A stretch of DNA of 64,000 bases from Beijerinckiaceae bacterium (lineage in GTDB: Bacteria > Pseudomonadota > Alphaproteobacteria > Rhizobiales > Beijerinckiaceae). Where the stretch lies: NCBI GenBank assembly GCA_947475995.1, contig CANJNI010000023.1, positions 1 to 64,000 of the forward strand, given 5' to 3'. Shown piece by piece: positions 22,965-55,498 of this stretch (positions are counted from its first letter, which is position 1; every line of letters starts with the position of its first letter). A program made the position numbers and the translations under genes. The notes beneath the pieces are model-generated. The model had not been told where the DNA came from, searched no databases, and worked only from the letters and a program-made list of their open reading frames with translations.

Positions 22965-23801
22965 TCAATTGCGCGTGTCGACGCGCCAGGATTCAAAACG
23001 CCGTTCGATCATCCGCAGCACTTCGGTCATCAGCATGCCGGCGCCGGCGATGATGACGAGCCCCACGAAAACGCGGTCCGTCTGGAACGTCGCGCCCGCC
23101 AGCGACATCATGTAGCCGATGCCGGCCTGTGCGCCGATCATTTCGCCGACCACGATGCCGATCAGCGCGTGGCCAAGACCAAGGCGTAGCCCCGTGAGCA
23201 ACATCGGCACTGACGAGGGCAGCGCCACGGTGAGAAAGATTTGCCGGTCAGATGCGCCGAAGGAGCGCGCCACCTTGATGAAATCGCGGTCGATGGTGCG
23301 TACGCCCGTGATGGTGCTGACAAGGATCGGAAAGACTGTCGCCAGAAAGATGATGGCGATCTTCGCGCCGAGATCGACGCCGAACCAGATGATGATCAGC
23401 GGCACAAGCGCGATGCGGGGCGTCGCGTAGAGCGCCGACACGAATGGATCGAGAATGGCGTTGAGACGCCGGTACCAGCCCATCAGGATGCCGAGCGGAA
23501 TGCCGACCACGACCGCCAGCGTATAGCCGAACAAGAATTCCATGCCGCTGACCGCGAGATGGTTCCAGATGCTGCCGTCGGCGATCATCGCCACCAGCGC
23601 CTTCACGATGCGGGTGGGCGAGGACACAAAGAGCGGCTTGGCCCAGCCCATGATGACGGTGGTTTCCCAGAAGATCAGAAAGCAAACGACGGCCACGAGG
23701 CCGAGAATGAAATTCTCGCGTTTGCGCCAGGTTGCCCGGGCGCTCTTGGCGTTGACGGGCGCGGCGATGGGGGCGCTTGTTACAGTGCTCACTTGTGTCA
23801 C
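22965..23801 (-). CDS. ABC transporter permease (TauC/SsuC type)
   Basis: EFLFGYTLAVVVGIPLGILMGWYRRLNAILDPFVSALYATPRIALVPLIIIWFGVDLGAKIAIIF. Confidence 0.93.
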   Translation of the reverse strand: MTQVSTVTSAPIAAPVNAKSARATWRKRENFILGLVAVVCFLIFWETTVIMGWAKPLFVSSPTRIVKALVAMIADGSIWNHLAVSGMEFLFGYTLAVVVGIPLGILMGWYRRLNAILDPFVSALYATPRIALVPLIIIWFGVDLGAKIAIIFLATVFPILVSTITGVRTIDRDFIKVARSFGASDRQIFLTVALPSSVPMLLTGLRLGLGHALIGIVVGEMIGAQAGIGYMMSLAGATFQTDRVFVGLVIIAGAGMLMTEVLRMIERRFESWRVDTRN

Positions 23802-23802
23802 C

Positions 23803-24612
23803 TCACTGCGCCGTCATCAGGCCGGTGCGGGCGGATTCTTCCTCGATCAGCCGCCACACGTGCGCTTGCAGATCGCGGAAACGCGGCTGGTGCTTCATGG
23901 ACAGCATGCGGGTCGAGGGCAAATCGACCGACACGATCTCCTTGATCTTTGCGGGCCGCGCCGAAAATACCGCCACGCGGTTCGACAGGAAGATCGCCTC
24001 ATCGATCTGGTGCGTGATGAACAGGGCCGTCTTTTTCGTTCGTTCCAGAATCTTCAGAAGCTCCGCCTGCATGAATTCGCGCGTCTGCGCGTCGAGGGCA
24101 GCAAAGGGCTCGTCCAGCAGGAGCAGTTCGGGGTCTGGCGCAAGCGCGCGCGCGATGTTGACGCGCTGACGCATTCCGCCGGAAAGCTCATGCGGAAAAT
24201 GATCCGCGAAGCCTTTAAGGCCCACGAGTTCCACGAGGCCGCGCGCGCGGTCGATCATCGCGCTCTTTGGCATCTTCTGCTGGATTTCGAGCCCGTATAT
24301 CACGTTTTGCAGAACGGTCCGCCAGGGAAACAGCGAGTCGTTCTGGAACACCATTGCGCGATCCGGACCCGGCTCGTTCACAACCTTGCCGCTGACGCGG
24401 ATTTCGCCGCCGTCGACATGGATCAAGCCATCGACGGCAGCCAGAAACGTGGACTTGCCGCAACCGCTGGGGCCGACGATGGAGACGAGTTCCCCTTCGT
24501 TCACCGACATGTCGATGCCGTCGAGCACATGCAGGGTTTGCCCGATGCGCTCGTTGAAATAATCCAGACGCACGCCCCGGGCGGACATCTTGATCTGGGG
24601 ATCGGCCATCAT
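23803..24612 (-). CDS. ABC transporter ATP-binding protein (TauB/SsuB type)
   Basis: VSIVGPSGCGKSTFLAAVDGL, ELSGGMRQRVNIARALAPDPELLLLDEPFAALDAQTRE. Confidence 0.96.
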   Translation of the reverse strand: MMADPQIKMSARGVRLDYFNERIGQTLHVLDGIDMSVNEGELVSIVGPSGCGKSTFLAAVDGLIHVDGGEIRVSGKVVNEPGPDRAMVFQNDSLFPWRTVLQNVIYGLEIQQKMPKSAMIDRARGLVELVGLKGFADHFPHELSGGMRQRVNIARALAPDPELLLLDEPFAALDAQTREFMQAELLKILERTKKTALFITHQIDEAIFLSNRVAVFSARPAKIKEIVSVDLPSTRMLSMKHQPRFRDLQAHVWRLIEEESARTGLMTAQ

Positions 24613-24630: not shown

Positions 24631-25608
24631 TTACTTGAGCTTGTCGAAGAAGCCTTCCTTCTGAAGCTGGTCGAGGATCGACATGTCGACCAGAGACTCA
24701 GGCTTCACGTTGGCGGCGGCCGGGACGGTGGCCTTCAGTTCATCGAGCACGATTGCGATGCCCTTGACGGAAGGCGCAGGCACGTCAGGGAATATTTCAC
24801 GATTGAAATAATCGTAGGTGTCCTTCACCGCATGGCCGGGCTTCAGCTTGAGAAAGTCGATCATGACCTTCTGGCCTTCGTCGGGATTCTTCTTGAAGCC
24901 CGCAATGCCTTCCGACATGGCCATCATGAAACGCTTCGCGCCTTCAGGGTTCTTTTTCAGAAATGCGCGGGTCGTCACATAGGATGTGTTGGGATAGTCG
25001 CCGGCAATGGGCGTGCAGTCGACCAGCACATGATAGCCTTCGTCTTCCAGCTCCGCAGTGCGCGGATATTGTTCAAGCGAAGCGTCTAGCTGGCCGCTCA
25101 TCATGGCGGCTGTGCGGGTGGTTTCACCGCCCAGCTGCAGGATGTTCACATCGGTGCGCTTGAGGCCGAGGTGCGTCAGCGCAAAGGTGGCGGCGGTGTC
25201 GGTCGATGAGCCAAAGCGCGAAATCGCGATGCGCTTGCCCTTCAGGTCCGCGGCGGTCTTGATGTTGTTCTTCACAACAAGCTGGAACGGAAGCTTGTTG
25301 GAAATGCCGCCGATGAAGACGAGATCCGCGCCCTGTACGGCGGCTGCTGCGGCGGATGTGTAGCCGTTCTGGCCGATATCGACGGAGCCGCCGATGACGG
25401 CCTGGGTGAGCGTCGGGCCGCCGTCGATGTAGGTGATCGTAATGTCGAGGCCATGCTTCTTGAAGATGCCGTTCTTCTGCGCATACATCATCGGCGATGT
25501 GGTCATAGACGCGCCGTCATAGCCGACCCGAAGCGGAATCGGGGCCTGGGCGAAGGCCGGGGAAGCCAGCAGAAGAGCGCTGGCGGCGAAAGCGAACTGG
25601 CGACGGTT
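24631..25608 (-). CDS. ABC transporter substrate-binding protein (NMT1/SsuA-like)
   Basis: Signal peptide MNRRQFAFAASALLLASPAFA; IPLRVGYDGASMTTSPMMYAQKNGIFKKHGLDITITYIDGGPTLTQAVIGGSVDIGQNGY. Confidence 0.93.
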   Translation of the reverse strand, partial: NRRQFAFAASALLLASPAFAQAPIPLRVGYDGASMTTSPMMYAQKNGIFKKHGLDITITYIDGGPTLTQAVIGGSVDIGQNGYTSAAAAAVQGADLVFIGGISNKLPFQLVVKNNIKTAADLKGKRIAISRFGSSTDTAATFALTHLGLKRTDVNILQLGGETTRTAAMMSGQLDASLEQYPRTAELEDEGYHVLVDCTPIAGDYPNTSYVTTRAFLKKNPEGAKRFMMAMSEGIAGFKKNPDEGQKVMIDFLKLKPGHAVKDTYDYFNREIFPDVPAPSVKGIAIVLDELKATVPAAANVKPESLVDMSILDQLQKEGFFDKLK

Positions 25609-25655
25609 CATGCTGGTCTCCCGTGAAATGACTGGTCTGTTCACATTATTGGTCC

Positions 25656-25737: not shown

Positions 25738-27471
25738 TCACGCGTTCATCAATTCGTTGCGTCTGGATTTCGTAGCCGCTTCATCCACCGCATCGGCAGA
25801 AATTACCACCCCGTAATCCCTCGCGGCGGATTCTACGGACAGGTAGCCTTCACGGATGTCCGACAGAACCATGGCGGGATCACGCTCAAGGGCCGAGCCC
25901 AGGCCGCCGCCCCCGGGCGTGTCGAGCCGGAAACGATCGCCGCCTTTCAGCGGATAATCGGCATAGCGGGTCGGCAGGCGCTTTTCGCCTTCAAGTCCCG
26001 GATTGACAATGATGTCGCCGGTGCGCCCCTTGCCGCCGTCCGCCGCGCCGTTCGGAGCGATGACGTGTTTGGTCGAGCGGATCGAGAAGCGCGCATCTTC
26101 CAGATTGACGTATTCGCGGCGAATGCCGAGGCCGCCGCGGAACTTGCCGACGCCGCCGGAGTCGCGAATGAGTTCGAAACGTTCGACGCGCGTGGGAAAT
26201 TCACTTTCGACGATTTCGATCGGCGCAATCTTGGCGTTGCTCTGGTTCACCGACGTGCCGGATGTGCCGTCCTTCGAGGCGCGTGCGCCCGCGCCGCCGC
26301 CCAGAATTTCGTACTGCACGTAGCCCTTGCCGGTGTAGGTGCTGCGGCCGCCCAGAATGATCGAGCGGCTGCCGCAGCCATCAGCGCGCGCCTTGGAAGG
26401 CACGATGTTGGTGAGCGCCGCGAACACTGCTTCGACTGTCGCATGCACCGTCGGATTGTAGGTGTTCACAGGCGCCGGGAAGCGGGGGTTCATGACGCTG
26501 CCCTCGCGGACGGTGATGCTGAATGCGTCGAACAGGCCCGAGTTGACGAAAATGTGCGGATCGACGAGCGCGATCAGCACATAGGCGCAGGCGGCATTGA
26601 CGAGCGGCGGGCGAATGTTGGCGGGGCCGCGCGTCTGATCGGCGGAGCCTGAAAAATCGAAATGGATGCTGTCGCCCTTCTTCTCGACGACGACATGGAT
26701 CCGCACCGGCTTGTTGAGTTCGATGCCGTCGTCATCGACGAAGCGCTCGGCCTCGTAGCGCCCGTCGACCCATTCGGAAATGGCGGCCCGCATGCGAAGT
26801 TCGGCCAGTTCCAGCAGGCGCGCAAAACACGCGATGGCGCGCTCGCGGCCGAATTTCGTGATAAGCGCCTTGAGGCGCTCCTCGCCGAGGCGGCTCGAAC
26901 CAAGCTGTCCACGAATATCGCCGAGCACCAGTTCGGGGGTGCGGCTGTTGCAGGCGATGATGCGCTCGATCTCCGTGTTGCGCTGATAGCCGCGCTGATA
27001 GCGAACCGCCGGCAGATGCAGGCCTTCATTGAACGTTTCGCGCGCCTGGCCCGAGCATGAGCCCGGCACGGGGCCGCCTATGTCGCTCTTGTGGGCGATG
27101 GAAGCGCAGAAGCCCATCAGGTCGCCATTGATGAAGACCGGCGTGATCACGGCCATGTCGGGCGCGTGCGGGCTGCCGCCCTCATAGGGATGATTGATCA
27201 GGTAGGCGTCGCCTTCCTGAATATCATCGTAAGTGCGCAGCACGGCCTGACAGCAGGCGGGAAACGACCCGATGTGCAAAGGCAGCACGACATGCTGGGC
27301 GATCACGTCGCCCTTCGGGTTCATGATCGCGCATGACGCATCCTGAGACTCGCGCACGATGGTCGAATAGCCCGTGCGGAAAAGCGAATTCTGCATTTCC
27401 TGCACGATGCCATCGAGGCTGGCGCGCATGATTTCAAGATCGACTGCGTCGAGCTTTGTCTTGGTCGGCAT
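25738..27471 (-). CDS. hyuB: Hydantoinase B/oxoprolinase family protein
   Basis: MRASLDGIVQEMQNSLFRTGYSTIVRESQDASCAIMNPKGDVIAQHVVLPLHIGSFP; NHPYEGGSPHAPDM. Confidence 0.95.
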   Translation of the reverse strand: MPTKTKLDAVDLEIMRASLDGIVQEMQNSLFRTGYSTIVRESQDASCAIMNPKGDVIAQHVVLPLHIGSFPACCQAVLRTYDDIQEGDAYLINHPYEGGSPHAPDMAVITPVFINGDLMGFCASIAHKSDIGGPVPGSCSGQARETFNEGLHLPAVRYQRGYQRNTEIERIIACNSRTPELVLGDIRGQLGSSRLGEERLKALITKFGRERAIACFARLLELAELRMRAAISEWVDGRYEAERFVDDDGIELNKPVRIHVVVEKKGDSIHFDFSGSADQTRGPANIRPPLVNAACAYVLIALVDPHIFVNSGLFDAFSITVREGSVMNPRFPAPVNTYNPTVHATVEAVFAALTNIVPSKARADGCGSRSIILGGRSTYTGKGYVQYEILGGGAGARASKDGTSGTSVNQSNAKIAPIEIVESEFPTRVERFELIRDSGGVGKFRGGLGIRREYVNLEDARFSIRSTKHVIAPNGAADGGKGRTGDIIVNPGLEGEKRLPTRYADYPLKGGDRFRLDTPGGGGLGSALERDPAMVLSDIREGYLSVESAARDYGVVISADAVDEAATKSRRNELMNA

Positions 27472-27472
27472 G

Positions 27473-29536
27473 TCACGCGCCTCCCATGGTCATGATGATG
27501 TTGCGATATTCGTCCACCCGCGCCGCATGGCCGGGGAACAGCACGGTGGTGCAATCGAGCTGGTCGATGATGGCCGGCCCTGTAAAGGTAACGCCCACGT
27601 CGAGCTTTTCCCGCTGGTAGACGGGGCAATCCACGACCTTTCCGTCGAACTGCGCCTTGCGGGTTTCGCGGATGGCGTCGGTCAGCTTCGCGCCCGTCGG
27701 GGCGAATTTCGGTATCTTCACGGGCGGAACGAGGCCGACTCCGCGCAGACGATAGGAAACAATTTCGACAGGTTCGTCCGGCGCAGTGTGGCCGAAGCTC
27801 TGCTTGTGCATGTCGTCGAACAGCGCGCGGAGCTTCCTGATCGCACCCGGCTGCAGCGCAACATCACACGGCACGGTGATTTCATAACCTTGCCCGGCGT
27901 AGCGCATGTCGAGCGCAGCCTCGATGCGGATTTGCGAGTCTGTAAAATCCTCGCCGGCGAGTTCGAGCTTCGCGCTGGCGGCGAGTTCGGCGAACACATC
28001 GTTGATCTGGTCTTCGGTGATCTTCGCCAACGAGGTGAGGCGCGAGCGAATGTAATCGTGCTTCACGTCCGACATCACGAGGCCCATGGCCGAATAGACG
28101 CCTGGATAGAGAGGCACCACGACGCCAGCCATTCCGAGGTCTTCGGCGATGCGGCCTGCGTGCAGCGGACCGGCGCCGCCAAAGGCCAGCAGCATGAAGT
28201 CGCGCAGATCGTGCCCGCGCATGGTCGAGATGGCCTTGATGGCTTCCTGCATCTTCACGTTGATGATGCGCACGATGCCCTCAGCCGCAGCCGGAACCGT
28301 CATCTGCAGCGCATCGGCGACGTTGGTCTGGATCGCCGTGCGGGCCTTGAGGCGGTCGAGCTTCATCTTGCCGCCGAGGAAATTGTCCTCGCCCAGATAG
28401 CCGAGCACGAGATTGCAATCGGTGATGGTGGGCTGCGTGCCGCCGCGGCTGTAGCAGGCGGGGCCGGGCTGCGCGCCTGCGCTTTCCGGTCCGACTTCCA
28501 GCGTGCCGAACCGATCGACGCGGGCCAGCGTGCCGCCGCCGGCGCTCACGGTGTTGATGTCGATCATCGGCAGCGCAATGTCGCGTCCCTCTATCTTGCC
28601 GCGATTGCTCACGGAGGGCTCGCCATCCTTGATGAGAGCCACATCGCAGGACGTGCCGCCCATGTCGAAGGTGATGAGGTTCTGGAATCCGGTTGTGCGG
28701 CAGGCCTGAACGCTGGCCGTAATGCCGCCTGCCGGGCCTGAGAGCACCGTCGCGACGGCCTTCTTCGCCGTGGCCGCAAAGGTCGACATGCCGCCGTTCG
28801 ACTGCATGATGTATTTCTGCGGCGTATCGACGCCCGCGCCCGCAAGGCGGCCTTCCAGATTGGCGATGTAGCGCGCCAGAATAGGCTGCAGGTACGCGTT
28901 GATCACAGTTGTCGAAAGACGATAATATTCCCGGATCTGCGGTACGATTTCGCTCGACAGCGAGACGCTGACGCCTGGAAGTTCTTCCGCAATGATCTCC
29001 CGCACGCGCGCTTCATGCTGGGGAGCGAGGAACGAGAACAGCAGGCAGACCGCGATGGATTGCAGGCCGGTCTTTTGCAGACGGCGCAACTCCTGCCGCA
29101 GATGGTCTTCGTCCAGCGCCTTCAGGATTTCGCCGTCGAACGCCACGCGTTCGCGCACTTCACCGGTCTGGCTTGCCGGGGCGAGAAGCGAAGGCTTGTC
29201 GTACATGATGTCGAAAATGGTCGGGCCATGCGGGCGTGACTGTTCCTGCACCTCGTAGACGCCCCGAAATCCTTCCGTCACCAGAAGGCCGGTGCGGACG
29301 CCCTTGCCTTCCAGCAGGGCGTTGGTGCCGACTGTGGTGCCGTGGCAGAAATAGCGGATGTCCTGCGGCTTCACGCCCTGCGCGATCAGCAGTTCGACGC
29401 CCGACAGGATCGCGCGCGAGGGGTCATCCGGCGTTGAAGGAATCTTGGCGACGGTGATCTCGTCCGTGTCCTCGTTGAGGTACACGAAATCCGAAAATGT
29501 GCCGCCTGTGTCGACTGTGACCCGATAAAGTCCCAT
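27473..29536 (-). CDS. hyuA: Hydantoinase A/oxoprolinase family protein
   Basis: VTVDTGGTFSDFVYL, FCHGTTVGTNALLEGKG, FDMGGTSCDVALIKDG, AFGGAGPLHAGRIAEDLGM. Confidence 0.95.
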   Translation of the reverse strand: MGLYRVTVDTGGTFSDFVYLNEDTDEITVAKIPSTPDDPSRAILSGVELLIAQGVKPQDIRYFCHGTTVGTNALLEGKGVRTGLLVTEGFRGVYEVQEQSRPHGPTIFDIMYDKPSLLAPASQTGEVRERVAFDGEILKALDEDHLRQELRRLQKTGLQSIAVCLLFSFLAPQHEARVREIIAEELPGVSVSLSSEIVPQIREYYRLSTTVINAYLQPILARYIANLEGRLAGAGVDTPQKYIMQSNGGMSTFAATAKKAVATVLSGPAGGITASVQACRTTGFQNLITFDMGGTSCDVALIKDGEPSVSNRGKIEGRDIALPMIDINTVSAGGGTLARVDRFGTLEVGPESAGAQPGPACYSRGGTQPTITDCNLVLGYLGEDNFLGGKMKLDRLKARTAIQTNVADALQMTVPAAAEGIVRIINVKMQEAIKAISTMRGHDLRDFMLLAFGGAGPLHAGRIAEDLGMAGVVVPLYPGVYSAMGLVMSDVKHDYIRSRLTSLAKITEDQINDVFAELAASAKLELAGEDFTDSQIRIEAALDMRYAGQGYEITVPCDVALQPGAIRKLRALFDDMHKQSFGHTAPDEPVEIVSYRLRGVGLVPPVKIPKFAPTGAKLTDAIRETRKAQFDGKVVDCPVYQREKLDVGVTFTGPAIIDQLDCTTVLFPGHAARVDEYRNIIMTMGGA

Positions 29537-29569: not shown

Positions 29570-29589
29570 CCGGACCCTAGCGGGTCCGG
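29570..29589. promoter_or_regulatory. Perfect palindrome/hairpin between lysR and hyuA
   Basis: CCGGACCC-TAGC-GGGTCCGG. Confidence 0.5.
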
Positions 29590-29625
29590 ACGGTCAGGTA
29601 AATTACGGGGTTTCTGTAGGCGAGT

Positions 29626-29640
29626 TTCAGATTTTGTGAA
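29626..29640. promoter_or_regulatory. LysR-type box upstream of hyuA (TTCAGATTTTGTGAA)
   Basis: 13/15 identical to TTCAGATTTGCTGAA at 30547-30561; TTCA...TGAA dyad. Confidence 0.6.
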
Positions 29641-29649
29641 TGTCGCCCC

Positions 29650-30540
29650 TCAACCCCCGTCATGCGCCAGCGTTTCGATGAGATCGTTCGCCTGCGGGAT
29701 GCGCTGCGCGCCCTTGCGATGCACGACGCTGAAGGCCAGCTTGCCGATGCGCGGGCCGAGGTCGACCGCCTGCACCTGCCGCGACCTCAGGCGGTGAATG
29801 CAGAGCGTATGCACGATGGCGCTCCCGACGCCCGCCTCCACGAAAGTCGCGGCTGTCTCGCAGGTCGGGGCCTCCAGCAGCATCCCGGCCCGGGCGATGT
29901 GGGGTCCCAGCGTTCGCTCGATCAGCTTGCGGGTCGTGGTGGTGGCGGGGGGCACGATGAGCCGCTGGCGGGCGAGGTCGGCCAGCGCCGGCGGGCGGCG
30001 GCGGATGGCGGGATCTTTCGGATTGAACGCCAGCGACAGGCCGGTTTCGGCGACCGTCTCTCGTTCAAGCCGTTTCGGCAGGTCGGGGAAAATCCCCAGC
30101 GCAATATCCACCTCGCCCTTGTCGAGAGCCACGATGGCGTCGGCTGACTTGTAAACGCGCAGGTTCACTTCAATGGACGGATAGCGGTTCAGGAAGTTGC
30201 GGATTTTCGGCGCGAAATACCACGCATGATCGCTGCCGACCGAAATCGCCAGACGTCCCTCCGGGGCGCGGCGCGAGAGGGTTTGCAGCGCCTGTTCGGC
30301 GCGCTCGAAGATTGCGTCGACTTCGCGCAGAAAGCGTTCGCCTGCCACGGTGAGCACAAGTTTATTCGGCAGGCGCTCGAACAGATCGAAGCCCAGATCG
30401 GTCTCGAGCCTGCGAATCTTGCCGGAGATGGCCGGGATCGATTGTTTCAGTCGCGCGGCCGCGAGCCGCAGGCTTCCCTGTCGGGCCACGAGATGGAAGG
30501 CCCGCAGGCGCTTCAGGTCGAGCGTATCAATATCGAGCAT
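29650..30540 (-). CDS. LysR family transcriptional regulator
   Basis: LKRLRAFHLVARQGSLRLAAARLKQSIPAISGKIRRLETDLGFDLFERLPNKLVLT N-terminal HTH. Confidence 0.95.
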   Translation of the reverse strand: MLDIDTLDLKRLRAFHLVARQGSLRLAAARLKQSIPAISGKIRRLETDLGFDLFERLPNKLVLTVAGERFLREVDAIFERAEQALQTLSRRAPEGRLAISVGSDHAWYFAPKIRNFLNRYPSIEVNLRVYKSADAIVALDKGEVDIALGIFPDLPKRLERETVAETGLSLAFNPKDPAIRRRPPALADLARQRLIVPPATTTTRKLIERTLGPHIARAGMLLEAPTCETAATFVEAGVGSAIVHTLCIHRLRSRQVQAVDLGPRIGKLAFSVVHRKGAQRIPQANDLIETLAHDGG

Positions 30541-30546
30541 CGGAGG

Positions 30547-30561
30547 TTCAGATTTGCTGAA
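30547..30561. promoter_or_regulatory. LysR-type inverted-repeat box (TTCAG-N5-CTGAA)
   Basis: TTCAGATTTGCTGAA (contains T-N11-A), 6 bp from the lysR start codon in the divergent promoter region. Confidence 0.6.
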
Positions 30562-30694
30562 ACTTGTCGCAGGTAAGCCTCAGGACTGGGCAAGGTCAAT
30601 GGCGCGCTCCTGCATTGGTCGAATGCGCCGGATTATTGTTGGCCGCGCGGGCCGCCGGGCCTAGAATGCGCTGCACCGGATTCAGGATTTTTCC

Positions 30695-31609
30695 ATGACG
30701 ACCGTCTACCCGCGCGATCTTGTTGGATATGGCCGCAACCCGCCCGACGCCCAATGGCCTGGAGGGGCGCGCGTCTGCGTGCAATTTGTCGTCAATTACG
30801 AAGAGGGCGGCGAGAACAACATCCTGCATGGAGACGCGGCGTCCGAGGCGTTTTTGTCGGAAATCGTCGGCGCCGCCCAATGGCCGGGGCAGCGGCACTG
30901 GAACATGGAATCGATCTACGAATATGGCGCGCGCGCCGGCTTCTGGCGCGTCTGGCGCGCCTTCACGCGACGCAACCTGCCGGCTACCGTCTATGGCGTC
31001 GCCACGGCGCTTCAGCGCTCGCCCGAACAGGTGGCGGGCATGAAGGAGGCCGGGTGGGAAATCGCCAGCCACGGCTACAAATGGATCGAATACAAGGATT
31101 ACACGCGGCAGGCCGAACTTGAACATTTTCACGAGGCGTTGCGCATCCATGAAGCCGCCACGGGCGAACAACCACTCGGCTGGTATACCGGTCGCGCGTC
31201 AATGTTCTCGCGCGAGATCGCCGCAGACCATGGCGGGTTCCTGTATTCGTCGGACGACTATGCAGACGATCTGCCATACTGGGTGAAGGGCAAGAACGGC
31301 CCGCATCTGGTCATCCCCTACACGCTCGATGCGAACGACATGCGTTTTGCAGTGGCGGCGGGTTTCAATTCCGGCGAGCAGTTCTTCCAGTATCTGAAGG
31401 ACAGTTTCGACGTGCTGTATCGCGAGGGTCAGGAAGGCTCGGCGAAGATGATGAGCATCGGCCTCCATTGCCGCCTCGTCGGTAGGCCCGGCCGGATCGC
31501 GGCGCTGGAGCGCTTCATGGATTACATCCTGTCGCATGAAAAAGTCTGGGTGGCGAAGCGCGTCGATGTCGCGCGCCACTGGCATGCTGTTCATCCGGCG
31601 AAGGTCTGA
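30695..31609 (+). CDS. Polysaccharide deacetylase family protein, PuuE (allantoinase/cyclic imidase)-like
   Basis: YPRDLVGYGRNPPDAQWPGGARVCVQFVVNYEEGGENNILHGD; ASHGYKWIEY; GFLYSSDDYADDLPYW. Confidence 0.9.
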   Translation: MTTVYPRDLVGYGRNPPDAQWPGGARVCVQFVVNYEEGGENNILHGDAASEAFLSEIVGAAQWPGQRHWNMESIYEYGARAGFWRVWRAFTRRNLPATVYGVATALQRSPEQVAGMKEAGWEIASHGYKWIEYKDYTRQAELEHFHEALRIHEAATGEQPLGWYTGRASMFSREIAADHGGFLYSSDDYADDLPYWVKGKNGPHLVIPYTLDANDMRFAVAAGFNSGEQFFQYLKDSFDVLYREGQEGSAKMMSIGLHCRLVGRPGRIAALERFMDYILSHEKVWVAKRVDVARHWHAVHPAKV

Positions 31610-47680: not shown

Positions 47681-48949
47681 ATGGAAACGCGCGCCAATTA
47701 CGCCCTGATCGGACTGTTCACCCTGGCGGTGCTCGCCTCGGCGATCATGTTCGTCACGTGGTTTTCGGGAGCCGACAAGCGCGGCACGCGCGTTGTGTAC
47801 AAGGTCGTCTTCACGACGTCCGTCTCGGGCCTTTCGCGCGGCGCGCAGGTGCTTTTCAACGGCTTGAAAGTGGGCGAAGTCACCGCCATCGACCTTATGG
47901 ACGATCCCGGTCAGGTCTATGCAATGATCGACGTGGACCGCCGCACGCCCGTCAAGGTCGATACGCGCGCAAGGCTCGAATATCAGGGTCTGACGGGCGT
48001 CGGTTCCATCGCGCTTGCGGGCGGCACTCCGGATGCGGCTGCGCTGCAGTCAACGGACGGGACGCCGCCGACCATTCTGGCCGAACGTTCGGAATTCCAG
48101 AACATCCTTGAGACTGTGCAGCGGCTTTCCGGAAAGACCGAAAGCGTGCTCGAAAATGTCGATAAGCTGATTTTGGGCAATTCCGAGAATGTCGGCCGGA
48201 TGATCGTCAATCTTCGCACCTTCTCGGACGCGCTGGCGGCGAATTCCGACGGCCTGAAAGATTTCATGGCCGGTATGTCGGAGCTTGGCCGCGCAGTTAA
48301 GCCGGTCGCCGAAAACCTCGAAAGGCTCACGCGCGATCTCGACGAGCGCATCGTGGCGATCGACCCCAAGGCGATCACCAGCATCGTGGCGAATGTGCAG
48401 GATCTGTCGGCGAAGCTGAACGATTCGGCCAACCCCGAAAGCATCAAGCAGTTCCTGACCGGCATGGCGGACCTTGGCCGCGCCGCCAAGCCCATCGCGG
48501 ACGATATCCAGAAGGTCACGCGCGACCTCGACGAGCGCATCGCGGCGGTGGACCCGAAAGCCGTTTCCTCCATCATGGCCAATGTGCAGGAGCTTTCGAC
48601 CAAGCTGAACGCTTCGGCCGACAAGGTTGATTCCGTGCTGGCCGGAATCAACAATTTCATCGGCGCCGGCGACGGCAAGGGCGGCGACACCAAGAGCATG
48701 TTCGCCGATGTCGGGGAGGCGGCGCGGTCGATTCGCAAGCTCGCCGACAATCTCGACCAGCGCACCAAGGATCTGACCGCCAGCATCGGGCGTTTCACCG
48801 GCCCGGGACTGCGGCAATATGAGGCGCTGGCGGCCGACGGGCGCAAGACGCTCGAAGAGATCAACCGCACCCTGCGCTCGCTGGAAAAGAACCCGCAGCA
48901 GCTCCTCTTCGGCGCGAAGCCGAAGATTCCCGAATACAGCGGTCGGTAA
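47681..48949 (+). CDS. mlaD: MCE/MlaD family protein
   Basis: METRANYALIGLFTLAVLASAIMFVTWF; MCE domain VYKVVFTTSVSGLSRGAQVLFNGLKVGEVTAIDL; coiled-coil C-terminus with 63-aa tandem repeat. Confidence 0.94.
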   Translation: METRANYALIGLFTLAVLASAIMFVTWFSGADKRGTRVVYKVVFTTSVSGLSRGAQVLFNGLKVGEVTAIDLMDDPGQVYAMIDVDRRTPVKVDTRARLEYQGLTGVGSIALAGGTPDAAALQSTDGTPPTILAERSEFQNILETVQRLSGKTESVLENVDKLILGNSENVGRMIVNLRTFSDALAANSDGLKDFMAGMSELGRAVKPVAENLERLTRDLDERIVAIDPKAITSIVANVQDLSAKLNDSANPESIKQFLTGMADLGRAAKPIADDIQKVTRDLDERIAAVDPKAVSSIMANVQELSTKLNASADKVDSVLAGINNFIGAGDGKGGDTKSMFADVGEAARSIRKLADNLDQRTKDLTASIGRFTGPGLRQYEALAADGRKTLEEINRTLRSLEKNPQQLLFGAKPKIPEYSGR

Positions 48950-49772: not shown

Positions 49773-52700
49773 TCAGTCGAAGCGGCCTGCCGCATGTGCG
49801 AGCATCGTATAGACCTTGCCGGTGTCTGAGGTCAGATACGAGCGCACCAGCGTCCCGTCGCGGTCCTCTCGGCCGACCTCGGTGAGGAGGCGCTCGAACT
49901 CGCGCGTATAGCGGGTCACGGTCTCCCGGAAATCCGCATCCACCCTGTAGCGGCGGCGGATTTCGTCGAAGGTCTGCTGTCCCTGCACGGTGTAGAGCCG
50001 GCGGGAGAACACATTGCGCTCGCCCCGGTTGTAGCGCTCCCACACGTCCATGACGGCGTCGTGATCGACCATGCGGGCAATGTCGAGCGAGATCGACTCG
50101 AGCGTATCGGCAGGCTTCGCGACCGGGGCAGGCGCAGCGCGCTGGGCCTCGGGCTCGTCGCGGGAGGCGCGGGCGAGCAGGTCCGAAATCCAGCCTGCGC
50201 CGCGATCGGTCGCCGAACGGGCAGGGCTTGCGGCGGCGGCGCGGCGCGGTTCCTCGCGCGGCGGCGGCGGGGTGACGCGCGCTTCGTTGCGGAACGGCTC
50301 GAAGCTGCGGGCCGGTTCGGGACGCGCCTCTTTCCGCGCGGGTTCGGACATCCGGAAGGTCGGTGCGGGATCGACCGGGCGCGGCGTGGCGCGGAAGGTC
50401 GGCTGCACGGCTTCGGGCATCCGCACCGGTTCGGGCGCGCGTTTGGTCTCGACGACGCGGGCGGGCTCGACGCGGGCGGCCGGAGCAGCGTCCACAACGT
50501 CATAGGCGCGGCCTGACCGGGAGACGAGTTCGGTCAGTTCGCCGAGCGCCTTGATCTGGTCGTTGACGACACGGCGCAGTGCGGCGGCCTGTTCGGCCGT
50601 CTCGCGCGGCAGGTCCGCAGTCCCGCGGCGCACTTCCTGCCGGGTCGCTTCCAGTTCCTGCTGGATTTGCGCCGACACAGTGCGCACTTCCTGGGCGGAG
50701 GTCTGGAATCGTTCGGTGGCCTGCGAGAACAGTTCGTTCATCTCGCGGATGGCCTGCTCGTAGGCGGCCCGCAGGGCTGCAGCGGTGCGCTCGCGTTCGC
50801 GGCCGCTCGCATCGCGGATTTCCTCGAATTGCGAGCCGATCATGCCCGCCACGCCCTGCGTGGTTTCGGACAGGAACGTGCCGATGTCGCGTGCGCGCGC
50901 TTCCGCCTTCTGGAAGGATTCGTCGAGCAGGGAGGAGAAAGACCGAAGCACGCCGTCGAAGTCGCCGGTGCGGCGGTTGATCTCGGCCAGAAGCGCGTCG
51001 AGCGACTCGCGGCGCTGCTCGACCATATGTTCGATCTCACGCTGCGAGCGGCTGAATTCGACCGCGCTGAGTTCGAGGTTCTGCTGTTCGGTCTGGAGGC
51101 GGCCGGCCAGCGCGCCGGCGTTCTCGAGCGTCGAGGACGCCGTCTGGTTGAGGGTGATGACCTGCGTGGAGATTGCGCCAAGCGACGACTGGAAATCGCG
51201 CACGCGATTGCCGAGCGCGCCTTCGATGGCGCCGAGATTCTGGCTGGCGTCGCCGATGATCGACTGCAAGGCCGTGTTGGTGTTCGAAAGCTGATCGAGC
51301 ACGGCGACCATCTCGCTCTTGAGGCGGTCGTTGGCGCTGAGCAGCGAATGAACGGACTGGGTGGCGCTCGTCTCGATCGCCTGACGCAGGCCGTTGGTCG
51401 AATGATCGACCGCAGCGGACAGTTCCATGCGGGTCTTGCCGAGTTGCTGCACCACGGAGGCGCCGCGCTGCTCGATCGCATTGGCGACCAGTTCGCCGAC
51501 GCTCGCGACTTCCTGGGCGATCTCGCTGCCGCGCGACGACAGGAGTTCGATCAGCATCGGACCCTTCTGGTCCAGCATGTCGTGCAGTTCGGACGAGCGC
51601 GTCGCCAGCGTGTTGTGAAGCTGCGACGTGCTCTGCGAGAGCGATCGTTCGATCTCGCCGATGCGGCGCGTGAGCGTCTCTTCCAGCACCTGCGGATTGA
51701 GAACGGCCGCGACGCGTTCGACGCCGTCGCCCAGCACGCGCGCGATGTCGAGCGCATTCTGTGCGAGCGTGTCGCGGACAGCAGCGCCGCGCGCCTCGAG
51801 GCCTGACTCGATCTTCTCGGTGATCTGCGTCAGCGTGCGGGCGACTTCGCCGGCGCGCGATGCGGTGGTGCGGTCGAAATTGTCGATCTGCTCCGCCAGA
51901 CGCTCCGAGACTTCGGTCGTGCGCACCGATGCGGTTTCCTCGAACCGTTCGATGTGGCTGGCCATCGTGTCGATGTGCGACGCGATGCGTTCGGCCACTT
52001 CCACGGCGCGGGTCGAGGCTGTTTCCTCGAAGCGGGCGATATGGGCGGCCATCGTGTCGGCGATCTCGCGCGCCTTGGCGGCGGAAACGCTGTCGAAGCT
52101 CTGAAGCTGTTCGCCGATGGCGGCGGCGACTTCATCGGTCCGGGTTCCGGCGGCGTCTTCGAGCATCTGGATATGACCGACGAGCGCTGTCGTCACTTCC
52201 GTGGCGCGGGCAGCGGTGGTGCGGTCGAAGCTCTCGATCTGGTCCGCGATGGCGTTCAGAACGTCGTTCGTGCGCGTTCCGGCGGTCTCCTCGAAGACGC
52301 GCAGTTGCGCCTGGATTGTCTGCGCGGTTTCCTCCGCGTGCCGTGCGGCATGGTCGTTGAAAGTGCGGATGTAGCCGTCGAGCGCGCGGGCGATGGCGAC
52401 GGTCTTTTCGTTGGCGGCCTGCTCGAAGCGGCTGATATGCCCGTCGAAGGTGGCGGCCACCTCGATGGTCTTGAACTCGGCGGTCTCGTTGAAGTTGCGA
52501 ACCTTCGCTTCGAGCAGCGAGGCCGCTTCATGCGTGCGCTGCGCAAGACGATCCGTGAAGGCCTCGGCATGGGTCGTGAAGGCCGCTTCGACCGCGTCGA
52601 GCTTCTCGTTCACTTCGCCGGTGAACTTGTCCGAATGGGCGGCGATCTGCTGCGTCAGCGCGCTGCCGTGCGCCATGACCGCCTGTTCGAACGAACCAAC

Positions 52701-55397
52701 GCGATCCACGATGGCTTCGTTGATACGGTCCCCATGCATGCCGATGGCCGCAATGGCCTCCCCGGCGGAAGCCGCGAAACGTTCGTGCAGCGCGTTGGTC
52801 TGCGCCTCGAGCTGCGTGCGGGCGAGTTCGTGATGCTGGTCGAGCATCTCCGCGACTTCGTTGCCGGAGACATGGAAAAGCTGACGGGCGGCGTCGGCCT
52901 GCGCGGCGATGCGGGCCGCGATGTCCGACGTCGAGGCTTCGAGTTCTTCCTGCAGCTTGCGGCCCTGGACCGTGATGGTTTCCTGCAGCTGGTCGGTCGT
53001 CTGCGCGATGCGCACGGCCAGGTCCTGGCCGTCGCCGGTGATGACGGAGACGATGCGGGCGCTGGCTTCGTCGAGGCGTCCGGTGACGGCTTCGCTGTGC
53101 TCGGCGATGTTGCGGGTGAAATGATCTGCGCCGGCCGTGAGATGCCCGGCGAAGGTCTCGCTCTGCTCGGCCACGGTGCGGGTGAAGAACTCCGCCGTCG
53201 TGGTGAGCTTTTCAGCAATTGAATCGCCGTGCAGCGAGACCGCGTCGAGGAAGCGCGTGGATTCCTGATTGATGCGCGATGTGACCGCCTCGCCTCGCGA
53301 CGAGATGACCTCGCCGATTTCGCCCGCCGCATTGGCGATGCGGTCGGTGATGGCTTCGTTGTGCCCCGCCAGAGTTTCGGCGAGATGCATGGCTGCAGCG
53401 CCGACACGCTCGGCCAGCGACTCGCTGTGCGTCGTAAGGGCCTCGGTGAGATAGCCGGTCGTGTGTTCCAGATTGGCCGCAATGGTTTCGGAACCCGTCG
53501 ACATGGCGGCCGCCAGACGGTTCGTGGCTTCGTCGACGCTGGAGACGATGTGGTCGGAATGGCCCGACAGGGTCTGGGTCAGCTTGCCCGAGCCGGATTC
53601 GAGCGTGGTCGCAAGCCGTTCCGTGGCTGCTTCCAGATTTGTGCCGAGCAGCGAGGTCTGACCCGAAATCGTTTCGGTGAGGCGCGAGGCCGCGCTGTTG
53701 AGATCGCCCGTGAGTTGTTCACCATGCTGGGTGAGTGTGCCGGCCAGATGAGCGGCGGCGGTCGCGATGCTGTTGGCGAGCGTGTCCGTGTGGCTCGCCA
53801 GTATTTCGGCGTGCTGCGACAGGGTCGTGCCGAGAACGCCCGACGACTGGTCGAGCGTCTGGGTGATGCGGTCGGTGCCGCTGTTGATGGTCGCCGCCAG
53901 ATTGCTGGTCGATGTTTCGACCTTGGTGGTCAGCAGCGCGCCATAAATTGACAGCGTCTCGCCGACTTCGGTCGTGGAACGTTCGAGCTGTTCGGTAAGG
54001 GTCGTGGTTCCCGTCGTGAGGCTCTCGGCAAGCTTCGCGCTTGCTTCATCGAGGCGGGTGGTCAGCGAATCGCCACGCGTGGCGATCGTGTCGGCGATCA
54101 ACGACGCGGTTTCGCTCAGGCGCGCCGCCAGATTGTCGCCGCGCGAGGAGATCGTATCGGCGATGCGGCTGCCGGTTTCGTCGAGCCGCGTGGCGACTTC
54201 CGTGCCGCGCAGGCCGAGGTCCGCCACGAGAGCTTCGCCGGTGGTCTTCAGGCGCTGGTCGAGCGAGCCGACCTGTTCGGCCAGCGTGGTGGCGACGGTC
54301 TCGGACGCATCGGAGAGCTTGCGGGCGACGTCTTCGCCCGTGCCGGAAAGGCGCGTAACGATGTCCGCGCCGTGGGCGCCGATCTGTTCGACCAGCGTTT
54401 CGCCGGTGCGGGCGAGGGTGAGGCTGATTTCCTCGCCCTTCGAACCCAGGGAGGTGGTGACGCGCGCGCCGGCGTCGCTGACGCGCTCGGCGATCTGGCG
54501 ACCGGCGGTTTCGAGTTCCTTCGAAAGCGAGTCATGGGCGCCGGTGATGGCGAGCTTCACGCGCTCCGCATTGGACGCAATGGCTTCGCGTTCCGAAATG
54601 AGTTCGTCGAGCAGGGCGCGCATGCGCCGCTCGTTGTCCGAATACGAGCGTTCCAGGTTCGAGACTTCGGAACGCACGACCGTTTCGAGTTCCGCCGCGC
54701 GGGCGAGCGCCCGCTCGATCCCGTCGCCCATGGAGGCGACCTCGCGGCGGATGGCCTGCGACAGGGACACGACCTTCTCGGTCGCGAGGCCTTCGGGCTC
54801 CGCCAGACGAATGGCGACTTCGGTCATGGAACGCGCGGTGAGGCGCATTTCCTGGGCGCGGCGCATGATCCAGCCGGCGAGCAGGAACAGGAGCGCCGGG
54901 CCGAGCGCCGCAAAGCCCAGAACGGCGAGCGTATGCTGCGGCAGGCTCATCAATTCGCCGCTGCGCCAGAGGCTGAGGGCGTAAATGGCCGAGAGGCCGA
55001 GCCAGCCGGCGGCCAGCAGCAATCCGAGCAGAACCGGCGCGCGCGAGGGGCGGATCTGCATCGCCTGAAGAATCTGGCCGACGGAGCGCTGGTCGTCATT
55101 GGCGGCGACGGCGGTGGAGCGCGGCGGCTGCAACGGGGTTGCGCCGAGGTCGATCGGGGCAGGGCGCTCGATCGGCTCCCTGATGTCCAGCTTGGGGATG
55201 GCGCTGTCGTCTATGTCGGGAAGCCGCGAGGACGCCCGCACCGGAGGCGCGTCGTCGCCGATGGGATCGCCGATCTTGGGCAGGCGGGGTTCGTTGTCGG
55301 ACGTATTTTCGTCCTTGCCGGGCGTCAGGTTCAGCGCCTCCTCGATGGCCGAGAGCGCCGCCGCCGCCGGATCGAGAGGTTTGGGTTGGGTCGCCAT
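49773..55397 (-). CDS. Giant apolipoprotein-like coiled-coil membrane protein, GPR/RgsE (growth pole ring)-like
   Basis: 1874 aa; two TM helices near N-terminus (LLGLLLAAGWLGLSAIYAL, LAVLGFAALGPALLFLLAGWIM); long 22-residue repeats; conserved-looking C-terminal domain ending YLTSDTGKVYTMLAHAAGRFD. Confidence 0.85.
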   Translation of the reverse strand: MATQPKPLDPAAAALSAIEEALNLTPGKDENTSDNEPRLPKIGDPIGDDAPPVRASSRLPDIDDSAIPKLDIREPIERPAPIDLGATPLQPPRSTAVAANDDQRSVGQILQAMQIRPSRAPVLLGLLLAAGWLGLSAIYALSLWRSGELMSLPQHTLAVLGFAALGPALLFLLAGWIMRRAQEMRLTARSMTEVAIRLAEPEGLATEKVVSLSQAIRREVASMGDGIERALARAAELETVVRSEVSNLERSYSDNERRMRALLDELISEREAIASNAERVKLAITGAHDSLSKELETAGRQIAERVSDAGARVTTSLGSKGEEISLTLARTGETLVEQIGAHGADIVTRLSGTGEDVARKLSDASETVATTLAEQVGSLDQRLKTTGEALVADLGLRGTEVATRLDETGSRIADTISSRGDNLAARLSETASLIADTIATRGDSLTTRLDEASAKLAESLTTGTTTLTEQLERSTTEVGETLSIYGALLTTKVETSTSNLAATINSGTDRITQTLDQSSGVLGTTLSQHAEILASHTDTLANSIATAAAHLAGTLTQHGEQLTGDLNSAASRLTETISGQTSLLGTNLEAATERLATTLESGSGKLTQTLSGHSDHIVSSVDEATNRLAAAMSTGSETIAANLEHTTGYLTEALTTHSESLAERVGAAAMHLAETLAGHNEAITDRIANAAGEIGEVISSRGEAVTSRINQESTRFLDAVSLHGDSIAEKLTTTAEFFTRTVAEQSETFAGHLTAGADHFTRNIAEHSEAVTGRLDEASARIVSVITGDGQDLAVRIAQTTDQLQETITVQGRKLQEELEASTSDIAARIAAQADAARQLFHVSGNEVAEMLDQHHELARTQLEAQTNALHERFAASAGEAIAAIGMHGDRINEAIVDRVGSFEQAVMAHGSALTQQIAAHSDKFTGEVNEKLDAVEAAFTTHAEAFTDRLAQRTHEAASLLEAKVRNFNETAEFKTIEVAATFDGHISRFEQAANEKTVAIARALDGYIRTFNDHAARHAEETAQTIQAQLRVFEETAGTRTNDVLNAIADQIESFDRTTAARATEVTTALVGHIQMLEDAAGTRTDEVAAAIGEQLQSFDSVSAAKAREIADTMAAHIARFEETASTRAVEVAERIASHIDTMASHIERFEETASVRTTEVSERLAEQIDNFDRTTASRAGEVARTLTQITEKIESGLEARGAAVRDTLAQNALDIARVLGDGVERVAAVLNPQVLEETLTRRIGEIERSLSQSTSQLHNTLATRSSELHDMLDQKGPMLIELLSSRGSEIAQEVASVGELVANAIEQRGASVVQQLGKTRMELSAAVDHSTNGLRQAIETSATQSVHSLLSANDRLKSEMVAVLDQLSNTNTALQSIIGDASQNLGAIEGALGNRVRDFQSSLGAISTQVITLNQTASSTLENAGALAGRLQTEQQNLELSAVEFSRSQREIEHMVEQRRESLDALLAEINRRTGDFDGVLRSFSSLLDESFQKAEARARDIGTFLSETTQGVAGMIGSQFEEIRDASGRERERTAAALRAAYEQAIREMNELFSQATERFQTSAQEVRTVSAQIQQELEATRQEVRRGTADLPRETAEQAAALRRVVNDQIKALGELTELVSRSGRAYDVVDAAPAARVEPARVVETKRAPEPVRMPEAVQPTFRATPRPVDPAPTFRMSEPARKEARPEPARSFEPFRNEARVTPPPPREEPRRAAAASPARSATDRGAGWISDLLARASRDEPEAQRAAPAPVAKPADTLESISLDIARMVDHDAVMDVWERYNRGERNVFSRRLYTVQGQQTFDEIRRRYRVDADFRETVTRYTREFERLLTEVGREDRDGTLVRSYLTSDTGKVYTMLAHAAGRFD

Positions 55398-55483: not shown

Positions 55484-55498
55484 TTAACCAAATCTTAA
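55484..55498. promoter_or_regulatory. CtrA-like box TTAA-N7-TTAA
   Basis: TTAACCAAATCTTAA, exact consensus spacing, in the divergent intergenic region. Confidence 0.7.

Follow-up and report, generated by a model that had tools for sequence, protein, structure and literature searches.

Operators of LysR-type regulators combine an RBS near position -65 with an ABS near position -35 (PMC4730206; PMC8407307), the RBS being the more symmetric of the two (PMC6441110), and these regulators often repress their own gene (PMC8407307). The AtzR/atzDEF, BenM, CbbR, IlvY and MmsR operators, as described in PMC4730206, PMC6441110 and PMC8407307, provide the closest parallels for the locus analyzed here, which lies in a 64-kb stretch of DNA (the window). 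As in these systems, a symmetric RBS-like site with a T-N11-A signature is placed at about -65 by the predicted start, a less symmetric ABS-like site lies towards the -35 element, and a catabolic operon is presumably activated. While AtzR-type systems share one divergent region, the regulator and its target are here arranged in tandem and have two separate operators. In the literature collection searched for LysR regulators with hydantoinases, no relevant paper described a LysR operator of a hydantoinase/oxoprolinase-type operon. We consider it probable (roughly 80%) that two boxes flanking lysR are binding sites of the LysR encoded between them, which would activate hyuAB and repress its own gene. 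This kind of control is ordinary; what is new is the LysR subfamily and the split of the operator into a composite at hyuA and a single box at lysR.

The lysR gene (29650..30540, minus strand; ATG at 30540) encodes a 296-aa protein with both the N-terminal LysR HTH (PF00126, E 1.2e-16; 60.8 bits, cutoff 26.6) and the C-terminal LysR substrate-binding domain (PF03466, E 1.1e-32; 113.5 bits, cutoff 28), and is thus a LysR-type transcriptional regulator. It belongs to the same family as CbbR-type regulators (best PDB match 5y2v, E 1.5e-16); its best NCBIfam match, TIGR03339 phn_lysR, scored 130 bits, far under the cutoff of 341, and no named NCBIfam equivalog fitted. A second close LysR was not found in the same genome, where the next match showed 31% identity (E 1.5e-18). 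On the minus strand, lysR is followed in tandem by hyuA (27473..29536, ATG at 29536; hydantoinase/oxoprolinase A family, PF01968 E 9.7e-95), hyuB (25738..27471; hydantoinase B/oxoprolinase family, PF02538 E 6e-161) and an NMT1/SsuA-type ABC transporter, whose genes for a substrate-binding protein (24631..25644), an ATPase (23803-24612) and a permease (22965-23801) presumably belong to the hyu operon. In domain content hyuA and hyuB resemble caprolactamase/N-methylhydantoinase operons, but they scored 614.7 and 269.2 bits against NCBIfam caprolactamase cutoffs of 1000 and are hence not assigned to these equivalogs, even though caprolactamase alpha was the best NCBIfam match for hyuA. The plus strand carries, divergent from lysR, a puuE-like allantoinase (30695..31609; TIGR03212, 529.5 bits, cutoff 424.6) together with an allantoate/carbamoyl amidohydrolase, an aromatic amino acid lyase and a glycerate-2-kinase-like gene.

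The two boxes, TTCAGATTTTGTGAA at 29626-29640 and TTCAGATTTGCTGAA at 30547-30561, differ at 2 of 15 positions, so that the 13/15 agreement reported in the original prediction is correct, as is its distance of about 90 bp between the first box and the hyuA ATG (89 bp as measured). Read in gene direction, the hyuA box is TTCAC-AAAAT-CTGAA and the lysR box TTCAG-CAAAT-CTGAA. The T-N11-A signature had been ascribed to the lysR box, where it does occur, but it is also present in the hyuA box (positions 2 and 14 of both); both boxes are thus dyads with the T-N11-A expected at the RBS of a LysR-type operator. Exact matches to TTCAGN5STGAA in the 64 kb amounted to three strand-hits, located exclusively at the two boxes, as compared to 0.15 expected from shuffled sequences, which exceeds chance. 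A genome-wide search for this motif, which the original prediction had proposed, yielded 13 distinct sites in 4.14 Mb (pattern search); apart from the two boxes, 10 of 11 sites fell inside long open frames, as assigned by length and codon-position G+C alone, but one was intergenic. The C44 site (TTCAGATTTGGTGAA) was set aside as it falls within a long open frame. The intergenic site (G000:C28:25059, TTCAGGTTTGCTGAA) is likely a chance match; it is flanked by a peptide ABC binding protein on one side and a creatininase-like gene on the other, with a palindromic repeat adjacent.

Orthologous loci were defined by a LysR with 59-90% identity adjoining hyuA, which gave 17 non-duplicate loci including the window; these represent one genus-level group, largely Beijerinckiaceae/Hyphomicrobiales MAGs, and hence are not independent. 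A family-wide search (397 genomes) found close relatives confined to this genus. One of the 17 loci (L060) is labelled Devosia equisanguinis; its LysR-hyuA pair would reflect either a horizontal transfer event or incorrect binning of the contig. Ungapped alignment of the lysR-hyuA gap, anchored on [AG]TTTAC or ATTGT, revealed two conserved blocks. The first corresponds to the hyuA box (box B; 29626..29640, minus strand), an RBS-like dyad found in identical register in 17/17 loci, with the core TNNA-N7-TNNA. Arm complementarity averaged 4.06/5 at this register as compared to 2.76 at the best other register (17 sequences), and it was the only register at which all 17 sequences had a 5-5-5 dyad. 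Arm pairs differed by clade (TTCAG..CTGAA, TACAC..CTGTA, TTAAG..CTTTA, TAAAG..CTTTA and TAAAC..GTTTA), indicating, at the level of sequence, that both arms vary together between clades; when arms were permuted among clade representatives, complementarity was 3.32 +/- 0.31, and the observed value of 4.11 was reached in 0.3% of permutations. The TTAAG..CTTTA dyads of several clades are without T-N11-A at positions 2/14, the invariant core being TNNA-N7-TNNA. Differences in the recognition-helix residues (SIPAIS, TIPAIS, TVPAVS) did not map cleanly onto the TTCAG and TTAAG operators.

The second block, box C (TACAG-AAACC-CCGTA; 29604..29618, minus strand), lies 22 bp downstream of box B (centre-to-centre, i.e., two helical turns) in every ortholog, with the consensus TACA[CG]-N5-CTNAA. 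Its left arm, TACA[CG], is nearly invariant across orthologs and its right arm is less symmetric (arm match 4/5 in the window and 0-4 in other orthologs); located between box B and the -35 element, it is ABS-like in both position and reduced symmetry. The predicted hyuA -35 (TTTACC, 29597..29602, assigned from conservation) and -10 (TAGGGT, 29574..29579; spacer of 17), both on the minus strand, place the predicted start at approx. 29567 and the centres of boxes B and C at about -66 and -44, respectively. Relative to this predicted start, the two boxes thus have the RBS/ABS arrangement that is classical for activators of the LysR type. Among orthologs, the -35 TTTAC was present in 13/17 (ATTGT in one clade), followed after 16-17 bp by a TANNNT-like -10. 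The composite pattern was found once in the 64-kb window and was absent from 30 shuffles. Box B would be the half with high affinity in this conserved composite operator; the original prediction correctly picked out this box but overlooked the second half of the operator at 29604-29618. That the dyads might instead be RNA hairpins or terminators is extremely improbable: the hyuA box does begin 9 nt past the lysR stop codon, but the arms are short and A+T-rich, a T run is absent, and a terminator would not be expected to conserve its spacing to box C (22 bp) and to the promoter.

With a matrix built from the hyuA boxes of other clades alone, the two boxes ranked 2nd and 3rd in the 64-kb window. 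The best match (TTAACCAAATCTTAA, 55484-55498, score 18.8) scored above both boxes; it precedes a minus-strand ORF of 1874 aa (49773-55397) and is without a box C partner.

The composite also occurs upstream of 9/19 more distant lysR genes (36-56% identity), where it faces a divergent gene and has other neighbours. It there consists of TNNA-N7-TNNA, a 7-bp interval, a TACA/TTCA-type second site and TTTAC; for example, in one case (L093/L098) with a 56% identical LysR divergent from a hyuA-like gene, the arrangement is TAAAATTAATCTTAA-CCTCCCC-TACACAAGGTCTTAA-ATTTAC. Conversely, in three loci (L077, L080 and L097) a hyuA with 80% identity stands behind a LysR with 42% identity, and the composite is absent from the gap. 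The upstream motif of these three loci differs (GTAAATCGAATTATTTTATACGATGTT), and they look like cases of regulator replacement. As distant LysRs keep the composite and hyuA loci with an exchanged LysR lack it, the operator tracks the regulator rather than hyuA. These observations also bear on whether both boxes bind a different dimeric regulator; although a dyad is expected of any symmetric regulator, the composite follows this LysR subfamily across gene arrangements, does not occur at hyuA genes paired with a different LysR, and has the geometry of LysR operators, so that we regard binding by another regulator as very improbable. The sites, their conservation, their geometry and their co-variation with the LysR subfamily are established from sequence, and the proposed control of hyuAB by LysR has gained strong sequence support from the 17/17 orthologs, the RBS/ABS geometry, the two-arm covariation and the divergent paralogs.

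The lysR-proximal box (30547..30561, minus strand) lies 6 nt ahead of the lysR ATG and is a perfect 5/5 dyad. A predicted -35 (TTGACC, 30594..30599) and a predicted -10 that is a weak hexamer (TTACCT, 30571..30576), both on the minus strand, are separated by a 17-bp spacer, which predicts a lysR start at approx. 30564; the box would thus cover the predicted transcript from roughly +4 to +18. As repressor sites occupy such positions, the data suggest that LysR may repress its own gene via the lysR box. Using a matrix trained on hyuA boxes of other clades alone, the lysR box scored 17.1 with its own clade left out, a value equalled in 0/300 shuffles. By the same leave-clade-out procedure, a box was identified at P <= 0.003 in four loci (the window, L044, L046 and L060) and weakly in L053 (P = 0.06). 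Its distance upstream of the lysR ATG was 20-23 nt in all of them; L045 carries a degenerate version. Overall, the lysR box is conserved in 5/18 loci (weakly 6/18) but missing in 12/18, and the candidate autoregulatory site has, on this evidence, been gained or lost between clades. The six loci with a strong or weak box, and no others, have TTGAC[CG] at -58 to -61 relative to the lysR ATG. Conservation in just five loci and absence from twelve would agree with a genuine hyuA box accompanied by a chance resemblance at lysR; however, a perfect 5/5 dyad that is recovered by a matrix trained without it, and that keeps a constant distance to the ATG and to TTGAC[CG] in boxed loci even with different neighbours, makes chance resemblance quite unlikely. 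Autoregulation of lysR, as originally predicted, is thus supported for the window species and four other loci by a box placed over the predicted start.

The original prediction further held that LysR would control the divergent plus-strand operon that starts with puuE. Divergent regulation is common for LysR regulators (PMC8407307), and a box is present in the 154-bp lysR/puuE gap of both the window and L044, so that one LysR might govern lysR, hyuAB and the puuE operon through two boxes. However, the lysR box was found in 2/12 puuE-bearing loci, ten having puuE without a box, and 3/5 boxed loci (L046, L053 and L060) are without a nearby puuE. Box and puuE were not associated (P = 0.27; Fisher's exact test), and the box is not kept where puuE is divergent, as it would be if it were a shared operator. 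The predicted puuE promoter (-35 TTGGCC, 30639..30644; -10 TAGAAT, 30662..30667; spacer of 17; plus strand; from sequence alone) places the centre of the lysR box approx. 120 bp upstream of the predicted puuE start, and no further matrix match or activation site was found near the puuE promoter or its -35 in the window. Since the presence of the box and of puuE is uncoupled, the box is about 120 bp away and there is no other nearby match, control of puuE is unsupported; direct regulation of its operon is improbable, and joint control of all three units is unlikely. A second dyad near the puuE promoter (30612-30626, GCATTGGTCGAATGC) had no counterpart in L044 and was rejected. In L015, L049 and L054, which form part of one clade without the lysR box, the lysR/puuE gap is filled by a palindromic repeat of the GTCATTGCGAG...CGCAATGAC type, and the repeat abutting the G000:C28:25059 site in the genome of the window is similar to it.

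For binding, transcription starts, activation, repression and effector, we infer the following. A LysR tetramer would anchor on box B (about -66) and contact box C (about -44) beside the -35 element; effector-bound LysR would activate hyuAB and the ABC transporter, the effector perhaps being a hydantoin- or lactam-like substrate. LysR bound to the lysR box would block RNA polymerase at the lysR start and so repress its own gene. A possible history, to which we would give slightly less than even odds, is that the whole LysR subfamily carries a composite operator of common ancestry (TNNA-N7-TNNA, a 7-bp interval, a second site and a TTTAC -35). Its divergent members would have a single copy between lysR and the target; where lysR and hyuA are in tandem, the task would have been divided, the composite remaining at hyuA and lysR having a separate single box that several clades later lost. 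If so, autoregulation was rewired and lost while target control remained fixed. The loci provide a natural series in which to study how target control persists as autoregulation comes or goes. For an uncharacterised LysR subfamily, the analysis also yields an operator and a regulon core that can be tested, and it links a hydantoinase/oxoprolinase-type operon with its ABC transporter to one regulator.

Several relatives have a beta-hydroxyacid-dehydrogenase-like gene beside hyuB (L045 10783-11595, L053 6432-7244, L098 8917-9744 and L091 12030-12920), which is absent from the operon of the window. Elsewhere in the window, the 1874-aa ORF at 49773-55397 contains helical segments of the Apolipoprotein A1/A4/E type in repeated form (PF01442, E 6.5e-71) and has repeats at the DNA level within it (51844-52247), and two 189-nt tandem copies (75% alike) are located at 48237-48614, in the region of an MlaD-family gene (47681-48949).
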